Assembly (NCBI GenBank): GCA_029260715.1
Contig: JAJDCS010000002.1
Span: 1-43,583 of the forward strand
Length of the DNA: 43,583 nucleotides
Direction of reading: 5' to 3'
From: Phycisphaeraceae bacterium
Lineage (GTDB): Bacteria > Planctomycetota > Phycisphaerae > Phycisphaerales > Phycisphaeraceae
Shown: one piece after another, positions 32,282 to 34,638 of the stretch
How the letters are laid out: the number at the start of each line of letters is the position of its first letter
Position numbering within the stretch: position 1 is the stretch's first letter
Notes under the pieces: generated by a model
What the model was told of the DNA's origin: nothing
The model's database searches: none
The model's input: the letters and a program-made list of their open reading frames with translations, nothing else
Program-made: the position numbers and the translations under genes

Positions 32282-32327
32282 AAGAGACCGCTCCCTGATC
32301 CGCCTGAGGCGGACGGCTCGTTGTGGG
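32282..32327. repeat. Dispersed GC palindrome (R2), copy 3
   Basis: A 46-bp sequence that is exactly repeated at 32739-32784 in the same orientation. It abuts the ybaB stop codon (32328). The core TCCGCCTGAGGCGGA forms a stem. Confidence 0.9.
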
Positions 32328-32702
32328 TTAATCTTGCTCGGTTGAGAGCGAAGGCATGCCGGTTAAGCCGGGGATGTTCAGCCCACCGGTGAGTCGGGCC
32401 ATCTCTTGTTGGACCAGTTCCTTGGCTTTGACGAGCGCTGCGTTGGTGGCGCCGGCGATGAGGTCTTCGACCATCTGCTGGTCGGTTTCGTCGCCTTCGC
32501 CGGCGAGCGTCGCCAGCAGCGGTCGGTCCAGTCGGACCGCGACGACTTCTAAGTTGCCGTTTACTACGACACGCACCGCGCCGGCGCCGGCGTCGGCTTC
32601 GACCGTCTTTTGACCAAGCTCGGCTTGGAGTTGTTGCATCTTCTCTTTGATCTGCTTGGCTTGGCCCAGGACGGACGCCATGTTTTTGATTTGGTCAAAC
32701 AT
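32328..32702 (-). CDS. YbaB/EbfC nucleoid-associated protein
   Basis: A 124-residue YbaB/EbfC-family DNA-binding protein that forms a tweezer-shaped dimer and coats DNA. Visible features are FDQIKNMASVLGQAKQIKEK and MQQLQAELGQKTVEADAGAG in the first helix region and the conserved GNLEVVAVRLDRPLL strand, then DLIAGATNAALVKAKELVQQ. The C-terminal tail LTGGLNIPGL is typical. It follows dnaX on the same strand, as in many bacteria, but recR, the usual third gene, is absent. The gene is bracketed by two identical 46-bp R2 repeats. Confidence 0.93.
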   Translation of the reverse strand: MFDQIKNMASVLGQAKQIKEKMQQLQAELGQKTVEADAGAGAVRVVVNGNLEVVAVRLDRPLLATLAGEGDETDQQMVEDLIAGATNAALVKAKELVQQEMARLTGGLNIPGLTGMPSLSTEQD

Positions 32703-32738: not shown

Positions 32739-32784
32739 AAGAGACCGCTCCCTGATCCGCCTGAGGCGGACGGCTCGTTGTGGG
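32739..32784. repeat. Dispersed GC palindrome (R2), copy 4
   Basis: Identical over 46 bp to 32282-32327 and in the same orientation, lying between the dnaX stop and the ybaB start. Recombination between the two would delete ybaB precisely. It may also act as a transcript-processing or attenuation structure between dnaX and ybaB. Confidence 0.9.
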
Positions 32785-32812: not shown

Positions 32813-34564
32813 TTAGTTTTTCTCAGGTGGCGGTTGCTTTTCGGGGTACACGCCCACCACGGACGCGTCGAACGTTTCCATGACCTGCTTGACCAGCGGC
32901 TGTGCCATGGCGAGTGCGCGGTCGGCTTGGGTGACCGGGCGGCGCGGGGCGGGGGCTGAGCCTTGGGTGCGGCTGGCGGGCTGGTTAAGCGGTTGTTCGG
33001 ATCCTGGTGACGCCGCTCTTGCTTCGGTCATTTCCAACTCAACCCGCACGGGCCGACCGATGACGGTTTTGAACAGATCGGCGAGTTGCTGACACCGGCG
33101 TGCGTCGATGAAGCTGGCCAGGTCGCGGTGCCCCGGCTGGGGGGCGACGCGCGCGGTTTGGTCGTCTAAGCGAAGCAGGTCCAGGTGTCGCACCCACGAC
33201 ATGTTCGGCTGGTCCCGCACCGCTGCCAGCACGGTGGGCCAAACTTCGTCTTGCTCAACGGGGCTAGCAACGACTGGCGGGCTTGGCGGCGCTTCAGTCG
33301 GATTAATTTCAACGGTGTTGGGGGGCGCTACTTTTTTTTTTAGCGGTACAGGGGGTGTGGTCGTCGTCACTGTTGGGGCGGGCGCTTGGCCCGCGAGCAA
33401 TGCGGCGACGTCGGCCATTTTTTCGGCTAGCGCTAGGCGTACGATTGTTGCGTCGAGTAGCGCCCGTGGGCTTGAGCTGGACCGGCTGGATCGCTGGAGG
33501 TTTTCACACAGGGCGATCATGTAGACGAGGCCGCTCGCGTCGAATTGCTGGGCTTGTTGAGCGGCTTTGTCGCGCGCCTCGTCGGTCAACTCGACCAAGT
33601 TGCTGTCGACGCCGCAGACGTGGATGAGCATCATCTGCCGGAGGTACTCGATGAGCACGTTGATGAACTGCTCTTGACCGATGCCGCGGTCGAGTAGCGC
33701 CGCGGCTGCGGTCAGTGCGGCTGCTACGTCACCGCTAGCCAAGGCGTCGATCAGTGAAACGATCGCTTCTTGATCCGGGAGCCCGAGCATCTGCTCGAGC
33801 AGTTCGGCGGATAGGTTTGGCTTTTTACCCTTGGCGCCTTCGCCTGCCGCGGCGATCAGGCGGTCGAGCAAGCTCAGCGCGTCGCGCATGGACCCGTTGC
33901 CCAGCTTGGCGACTTGCGTTACGACCTGTTTGTCTGCGGCGATTTTTTCCTGCTTGAGCACGGCTGTGAGGTGGTCGGCGATGGCCGCGGTGGGGATGGC
34001 GCGGAAGTCGAACCGCTGGCAACGGGACTGGATCGTGGCGGGTACTTTGTGGGATTCGGTGGTGCACAGGATGAACTTCACGTGGGCGGGGGGTTCTTCC
34101 ATGGTCTTGAGCAAGGCGTTGAACGCCTCGCGTGTGAGCATGTGGACCTCGTCGATGATGTAGATTTTGAATATTGCTTGCCCGGTGGGTGACAGGCCGG
34201 CGTTGGCGATGAGTTGGCGAGCCTCTTCCACGGAGCGGTTGGAGGCTCCGTCGATCTCGATGACGTTCAGGTCGTCGCCTCGGCGGATCGCTTCGGCCAT
34301 GCGGGCTTGGACCTCTTTGGACGGGTATTCGCGCTCGCCGGGCAGCTTGGGGCAGTCGGGGATCGAATCCGGCGCGTTCAGTGCGCAGGCCAGCAGCCGG
34401 GCCATGGAGGTCTTGCCCACGCCGCGCGTTCCGGTGAACAGGTACGCGTGGGCCACGCGTCCGGTGGCGATGGCGTTCTGGAGCGTGCGCGCGATGGGCT
34501 CCTGGCCGATGACTTGGCCGAAGTCGGTCGAGCGGTAGCGTCGGGCTAAGACGGTGTATGACAT
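32813..34564 (-). CDS. dnaX: DNA polymerase III subunit gamma/tau
   Basis: The clamp-loader ATPase, 583 residues. Walker A is GTRGVGKT (45-52). DEVHMLTREAFNALLKTMEE is Walker B with the SRC-type region that follows (TIQSRCQRFDF). The lid and collar domains are present to about residue 365. A Pro/Thr-rich hinge (about 385-440) then leads to a tau-like C-terminal domain. The zinc module between Walker A and B is degraded, with only Cys60 and Cys71 where four Cys are usual. In the hinge the coding strand has ten consecutive A residues (33332-33341), a candidate frameshift or slippage site. SRP RNA lies just upstream. Confidence 0.96.
   Translation of the reverse strand: MSYTVLARRYRSTDFGQVIGQEPIARTLQNAIATGRVAHAYLFTGTRGVGKTSMARLLACALNAPDSIPDCPKLPGEREYPSKEVQARMAEAIRRGDDLNVIEIDGASNRSVEEARQLIANAGLSPTGQAIFKIYIIDEVHMLTREAFNALLKTMEEPPAHVKFILCTTESHKVPATIQSRCQRFDFRAIPTAAIADHLTAVLKQEKIAADKQVVTQVAKLGNGSMRDALSLLDRLIAAAGEGAKGKKPNLSAELLEQMLGLPDQEAIVSLIDALASGDVAAALTAAAALLDRGIGQEQFINVLIEYLRQMMLIHVCGVDSNLVELTDEARDKAAQQAQQFDASGLVYMIALCENLQRSSRSSSSPRALLDATIVRLALAEKMADVAALLAGQAPAPTVTTTTPPVPLKKKVAPPNTVEINPTEAPPSPPVVASPVEQDEVWPTVLAAVRDQPNMSWVRHLDLLRLDDQTARVAPQPGHRDLASFIDARRCQQLADLFKTVIGRPVRVELEMTEARAASPGSEQPLNQPASRTQGSAPAPRRPVTQADRALAMAQPLVKQVMETFDASVVGVYPEKQPPPEKN
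33332..33341 (-). other. A10 slippery run in dnaX (candidate gamma-producing site)
   Basis: On the coding strand the sequence is CTA AAA AAA AAA GTA (codons 408-412). Adding one A gives AGT AGC GCC and a TGA after seven new codons. Losing one A gives AAG TAG, an immediate stop. Either would produce a protein of about 411-418 residues, which ends after the clamp-loader core like a gamma subunit. CGCTA and TAGCG flank the run as an inverted repeat. Confidence 0.65.
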
Positions 34565-34572
34565 CGGTTAAA

Positions 34573-34614
34573 GTCCAGAGTCCGGGGTCCAGAATCCAGA
34601 GTCTGGGGTTACAG
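34573..34614. repeat. Heptanucleotide tandem repeat (GTCCRGA type), copy 2
   Basis: Six 7-bp units in register: GTCCAGA, GTCCGGG, GTCCAGA, ATCCAGA, GTCTGGG, GTTACAG. It lies between the SRP RNA and the dnaX start codon. It shares about 25 identical bases with the array at 16141-16197, which also sits directly before a minus-strand start codon. Confidence 0.8.
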
Positions 34615-34638
34615 GGCTGCGGGACGTGGCAGACACCC

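Follow-up and report, generated by a model that had tools for sequence, protein, structure and literature searches.

The dnaX locus and its adenine run

The window, by which is meant the whole stretch of 43,583 nucleotides analysed here, carries on its minus strand a dnaX gene, with ybaB/ebfC, the usual neighbour of dnaX, just downstream. The features on which the argument is built are the following (coordinates are those of the window).

32813..34564, minus strand: dnaX, tau/gamma subunit of the clamp loader, 583 aa (open reading frame, TIGR02397, Pfam domains)
33407..34564, minus strand: clamp-loader core, residues 1-386 (ATPase, lid and domain III), common to both products (Pfam)
33332..33341, minus strand: A10 run, putative slippage site, codons 408-411 (sequence and conservation in the class)
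33328..33330, minus strand: TAG that would end gamma on A9 (or A12) mRNA, 411-412 aa (sequence)
33309..33311, minus strand: TGA, predicted end of gamma (417-418 aa) if the mRNA has A11 (or A8) or the ribosome shifts by -1 (sequence)
32816..33331, minus strand: C-terminal part of tau only, residues 412-583, absent from the predicted gamma (sequence; shifted-frame homology in relatives)
32328..32702, minus strand: ybaB/ebfC, just 3' of dnaX, given for context only (PF02575, 84.9 bits)

The gene is identified by its match to TIGR02397 (dnaX_nterm; 366 bits for a cut-off of 250) and by the Pfam domains PF13177, PF22608 and PF12169 in the core, the last of which (domain III) ends at residue 386. 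It is an orthologue with the full core and a C-terminal part, and its hinge holds an uninterrupted run of at least nine As. Indeed, the ten Ts read on the plus strand at 33332-33341 are ten As on the dnaX strand, where codons 407-413 are CCG CTA AAA AAA AAA GTA GCG and the run begins in codon 408. An earlier note on this DNA had placed an A10 run in the dnaX hinge at these positions, which is confirmed, the run lying just after domain III. The same note held that one missing A would bring an immediate stop and one extra A a stop after seven codons, and the computed products agree on both counts: an mRNA with nine As encodes 411 aa (44.2 kDa, TAG at once), with ten As 583 aa (63.0 kDa, tau), with eleven As 418 aa (45.0 kDa, TGA after seven codons), with twelve As 412 aa and with thirteen As 584 aa.

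Runs of this kind are scarce in the genome. The 3.32-Mb assembly of the organism contains 18 separate runs of at least nine As, counting both strands (20 nine-base matches), two of which are A10, and no open frame longer than 100 codons covers the A10 outside dnaX; for both reasons the A10 within dnaX is more than chance. Four of the 18 runs are found on a single contig of the same assembly (C9, L214-L217), three of them with AT-rich flanks, and this contig is possibly mobile or foreign DNA.

Two kinds of repeats surround the locus. Short direct repeats of the type AGTCCAGAGTCCGGGGTCCAGAATCCAGAGTC occupy 34566-34620, just upstream of the dnaX start, and ybaB lies between two identical copies of a 44-base repeat (32284-32327 and 32741-32784) that contains the palindrome ATCCGCCTGAGGCGGA. 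For this repeat, 19 matches (43 bases, at most three mismatches) exist genome-wide in both orientations, as in a REP-like dispersed hairpin element.

The run, the closed frames and the frame of tau among relatives

The survey of the class covered 141 dnaX genes and their genomes out of 231 class genomes, relatives first and then mostly better-scoring matches, and in the rest of the phylum 40 dnaX genes out of 166 genomes. A locus without the DnaX core (L002) and the relatives without a full dnaX match (G001, G002, G023, G028, G031 and G033) were left out, a gene with a short core (L288) was left out of the trees only, and the named loci L052-L131 were inspected and enter no count.

Among the 141 class genes, which are not independent of one another, the longest stretch of As close to where the core ends is A10 in 83, A9 in 29, A12 in one, A8 in one and A7 in 15, while six have no such run but an in-frame G_GGA_AAA and another six have neither. 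A9, A10 or A12 is present in the hinge of 113 of the 141, and A11 in none. Genes of this A9-A12 kind occur in 22 of the 23 family codes sampled, A9 being the length in all ten run-bearing genes of family f23, and the run lies 15-55 codons past the core in 111 of the 113 (further out in L180 and L243). The relative with the best score (G032), 65% identical over residues 1-573, shares with the window an A10 with GTAG directly behind it and the same codon phase. Far from being absent or interrupted in close relatives, an outcome that the earlier note had named as contrary to its reading, the run is kept together with the paired nearby stops in most relatives examined. Outside the class, A9 or A10 was present in the stretch scanned in 12 of the 40 dnaX genes of the phylum, in two cases far from where the core ends, and both other frames are closed within ten codons in nine of the 12.

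The run occurs in all three codon phases (phases 0, 1 and 2: A10 in 5, 51 and 27 genes, A9 in 10, 6 and 13, the A12 in phase 1), and its flanks look unrelated among relatives while it persists, so that it is the nucleotides, not the lysines, on which selection acts. Furthermore, lysine is written AAG 1281 times and AAA 618 times in the 141 class cores, hence three AAA codons in a row are not the default.

Both frames other than that of tau are closed within ten codons in 102 of the 113 A9-A12 genes (11 are not so closed) and within 20 codons in 111. The ten-codon closure concerns 75 of 84 genes with tau in frame 0, 23 of 25 with tau in the n+1 frame and four of four with tau in the n-1 frame. 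At control positions in 95 of the 113 genes, both frames are closed within ten codons at 6.7% of 7,532 downstream and 7.9% of 21,375 upstream positions. By contrast, in the 22 class genes with an A7, A8 or G_GGA_AAA heptamer instead of the long run (the PRF-type genes), both non-tau frames are closed in none and one is closed in all 22 (Fisher 1.8e-17 against the A9-A12 genes). A process that shifts in both directions needs both frames closed; for -1 ribosomal shifting, one closed frame is enough.

The frame in which tau is encoded is variable. Of the 113 A9-A12 genes, 84 share the window's arrangement, with tau in frame 0 and a gamma that would come from slippage; in the other 29, the frame of the core meets a stop shortly past the run, and the C-terminus of tau is encoded in another frame, n+1 in 25 and n-1 in four. 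In all 29, BLASTP against in-frame tau C-termini finds homology in the assigned shifted frame (E of 1.5e-5 or better; six of the 29 alignments are shorter than 80 aa, at 31-77 aa). Since their tau C-terminus is out of the core frame, a shift appears to be needed in these 29 genes to make tau at all. The run is A10 in 27 of them: the frame varies, the length does not. Such genes with A10 are found in assemblies of one or two contigs (G030, G189 and G003), which argues that broken assembly is not their general cause.

Parsimony on a FastTree phylogeny of DnaX cores (180 sequences, run left out) gives 18 polarity changes among the A9-A12 genes of the class, where 50 label shuffles give a mean of 25.7 and a minimum of 22, and 16 changes of site type, where shuffles give a mean of 27.0 and a minimum of 24. 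On a quick IQ-TREE phylogeny built from the 141 class cores, the counts are 19 and 15, respectively. A shift direction that is not conserved has been pointed out as a mark of transcriptional realignment, i.e., polymerase slippage (Antonov 2013, PMC3711429). What the DNA itself shows is the run with its stops, the conservation of both across the class and the relatives with a shifted frame.

Ribosomal-type sites and RNA structure around the run

The 22 PRF-type genes offer an internal comparison, as they are predicted sites of ribosomal -1 frameshifting with, as a group, strong 3' stems. In the A9-A12 genes, shuffled sequences fold as well as the 55 nt downstream of the site (mean Z -0.25 with tau in frame, n=84; -0.13 for n+1, n=25; 0.15 for n-1, n=4), whereas in the PRF-type genes with reversed layout the mean Z is -2.06 for A7 (n=10) and -2.84 for G_GGA_AAA (n=6). 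These 16 genes differ from the tau-in-frame and n+1 groups of A9-A12 genes with Mann-Whitney values of 9e-6 and 3e-5, respectively. The six A7/A8 genes with tau in frame are intermediate (mean Z -0.91 or -1.52, according to the stretch taken), and several G_GGA_AAA and A7 sites have stems of at least ten pairs starting some six nt past the heptamer. A Shine-Dalgarno-like stretch precedes 5 of the 113 A9-A12 sites and 8 of the 22 PRF-type sites (Fisher 1e-4). Tau is out of frame in 16 of the PRF-type genes; BLASTP places the homology in the -1 ribosomal frame in 11 of these and finds no match in five.

The six G_GGA_AAA genes (L049, L051, L139, L153, L156 and L160) would be dnaX genes with reversed ribosomal frameshifting: the frame-0 stop comes one codon on in five of the six, and the -1 frame is open. 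The automatic assignment of tau to the longest open frame labelled four of them (L049, L139, L153 and L156) as n-1; homology places tau of L139 and L051 in the -1 ribosomal frame, against the automatic label in the case of L139. In L049, L153, L156 and L160, all of family f2, the C-terminal part in the -1 frame measures 68-77 codons and has no BLASTP match to longer tau C-termini. The count of no PRF-type gene with both frames closed is unaffected by this relabelling. Among the literature matches listed, none joined dnaX, slippery and GGGAAAA. A single class would in this way combine polymerase-type sites of three polarities with ribosomal-type sites of two heptamers and two polarities.

According to one proposal, the choice between slippage and ribosomal shifting depends on a second lysine tRNA (PMC5009743). 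In the class, pattern matches to tRNA-Lys(CUU) exist in 190 and to tRNA-Lys(UUU) in 191 of 198 genomes and do not separate the groups; some matches are plainly not tRNAs, controls with reversed patterns give none in most, though not all, genomes, and a single copy, from the organism's own genome, was checked with ARAGORN. Five PRF-type genomes (G037, G042, G046, G050 and G058) match both patterns, and the CUU match is absent from one PRF-type genome (G212) and from four with A10 (G045, G063, G074 and G130). The heptamer ends in AAA in each of the 22 PRF-type genes, which would agree with the presence of both lysine tRNAs.

In the window, the elements of ribosomal shifting are partly present. 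Its run contains the in-frame slippery heptamer A_AAA_AAA, though not A_AAA_AAG, and a stretch of 67 nt that starts within the run folds better than shuffles (z -2.25). In this fold, a 4-bp hairpin stands about 11-12 nt after the run and the main stem begins about 32 nt after it, and an E. coli-type stem a few nt past the heptamer is not found, the usual spacing there being about 5-9 nt. Nor does the window's site (L001) have an upstream Shine-Dalgarno-like stretch, and it is not among the 5 of 113.

These observations bear on the reading in which ribosomal -1 frameshifting on A_AAA_AAA makes a gamma of 418 aa as in E. coli, the length of the run being incidental, a reading we consider unlikely. 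Besides the heptamer and the fold behind the run, it can draw on related families of the same order, which use such heptamers with stems, on the bias towards n+1 (25 to 4), and on the run being followed by an in-phase G (A_AAA_AAG) in 16 of 25 n+1 genes, compared with 23 of the 84 genes whose tau is in frame (Fisher 0.0016), an excess that hints at a ribosomal share in the n+1 genes. Nevertheless, such a mechanism does not need a closed +1 frame, yet the window closes that frame after 0 codons, and 102 of 113 relatives close both; the window has neither a stem close behind its run nor a Shine-Dalgarno-like stretch, the latter being rare at A9-A12 sites in comparison with PRF-type ones. Moreover, the four n-1 genes need a shift in the opposite direction, and the shifted C-termini of PRF-type genes with a match lie only in the -1 frame.

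Structure on the 5' side has also been considered. The earlier note had described CGCTA/TAGCG around the run; the repeat is present, with the last A of the 5' arm inside the run, so that 4 bp remain outside, and it appears incidental. As a functional hairpin it was rejected, since relatives show no excess of repeats enclosing the run: arms of 4 bp or more occur in 2 of 113 genes, where shuffled pairing gives a mean of 5.6, and arms of 5 bp or more in none of 113, where the mean is 1.4. A general 5' hairpin was likewise rejected: the 30 nt before the run fold like dinucleotide shuffles in 95 genes (mean Z -0.33; 7% at p of 0.05 or less), although raw fold energies before the run are lower than further upstream (-9.4 versus -6.6 and -7.0 kcal/mol). 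Perfect hairpins of at least 5 bp ending at most 3 nt from the run occur in 22 of the 113 A9-A12 genes, where mononucleotide shuffles give a mean of 6.4 and a maximum of 12 in 200, and 11 control offsets give 2-9. Support for such hairpins is moderate, since the test was chosen after the broader one had failed and hairpins had been seen by eye, and since its shuffles were mononucleotide ones. In the window itself, the 5' flank folds no better than shuffles (z 0.33). With the broad test negative and the window's flank unfolded, tuning by a nascent-RNA hairpin would be a lead in relatives and not part of the explanation of the window.

Probable slippage, its precedents and the evolution of gamma and tau

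The A10 run of the window is, in all probability, a programmed transcriptional slippage site making both gamma and tau. RNA polymerase would add or drop As at the run and give rise to dnaX mRNAs of mixed A number. Those with ten (and thirteen) As would be translated into full tau (583-584 aa). With one or two As too many or too few, translation would reach TAG or TGA after 0-7 codons and yield a gamma of 411-418 aa that would keep the clamp-loader core and do without the C-terminal part. Slippage itself, its rate and the incorporation of gamma into the clamp loader are inferred. The earlier note had preferred the polymerase to the ribosome as the agent of the shift. This preference is supported by three features of the A9-A12 sites, set against the PRF-type dnaX genes of the class: the closure of both alternative frames, the position of tau in one or the other shifted frame among relatives, and the lack of 3' stems.

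Slippage could also take place in replication, as phase variation or ordinary mutation at the run, and switch a cell line between tau and gamma; this is a highly improbable account. Tau is expected to be essential, which makes an off state unlikely, and the lengths show no drift (83 A10, 29 A9, one A12 and no A11 among 113), A9 being moreover typical of some families. On the other side, the polarity has switched 18-19 times on the two trees, and long A/T runs are likely hypermutable in DNA too (PMC1088944). That the run is chance or a lysine-rich linker with no second product can practically be dismissed: a hinge can hold charged residues, and gamma is here a predicted product, yet the run is kept in all three codon phases with closed frames, and 29 genes would be left without full tau unless shifted.

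Transcriptional slippage has an established precedent in Thermus thermophilus dnaX (Larsen 2000, as described in PMC5009743, PMC1088944 and PMC4320859). Like the window, the Thermus gene has tau in one frame, an A run after the core and nearby stops in both other frames. It slips at A9 (PMC5009743), and its longer gamma form ends 16 codons on, versus seven codons on in the window. The window differs further in its A10, in belonging to an unrelated bacterium and in that its slippage is predicted.

Two-ORF dnaX genes with A10 were also known, with slippage predicted in 2013 (Antonov 2013, PMC3711429); they share with the window the A10 and the predicted slippage, and their layout is that of the 29 shift-type relatives, unlike the window's gene, which has tau in frame. 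E. coli dnaX, with the same gene, hinge and product pair, is the established case of ribosomal -1 shifting (PMC5009743), and it relies on A_AAA_AAG, a Shine-Dalgarno stimulator and a stem, neither stimulator being present in the window; sister families in the window's order do, like E. coli, use heptamers with stems. A stem-loop in the nascent RNA stimulates slippage in the Roseiflexus IS630 element (PMC5009743); the perfect hairpins adjacent to the run in 22 of 113 relatives resemble it, whereas the unfolded 5' flank of the window and the different run do not. The open-licence papers searched gave no description of dnaX frameshifting, or of its spread and switching, in Phycisphaerae. The window's dnaX may be regarded as a well-supported instance of the known Thermus-type mechanism, in an unusually informative family.

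The two trees allow a joint reading, which we hold to be about evenly balanced: the gamma:tau output would be a selected trait that outlives its mechanism, the mechanisms having been swapped repeatedly and tuned in some lineages by a hairpin of the nascent RNA directly 5' of the A run. On one side would stand polymerase slippage at a run held at A9-A10, whether tau is in frame, n+1 or n-1; on the other, -1 frameshifting by the ribosome on A_AAA_AAA or G_GGA_AAA heptamers backed by stems. The basis is the 15-16 site-type and 18-19 polarity changes counted by parsimony on two DnaX trees. In E. coli, the question of whether gamma matters was the subject of considerable controversy before it was settled (PMC5009743). 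In the class studied here, 135 of 141 dnaX genes carry a frameshift-type signal in the hinge, and because they do so by different mechanisms and polarities, this is strong evidence that both products are selected. The dnaX genes of the class also constitute a natural set of paired sites for the determinants of slippage rate: run length, 5' hairpin and direction.
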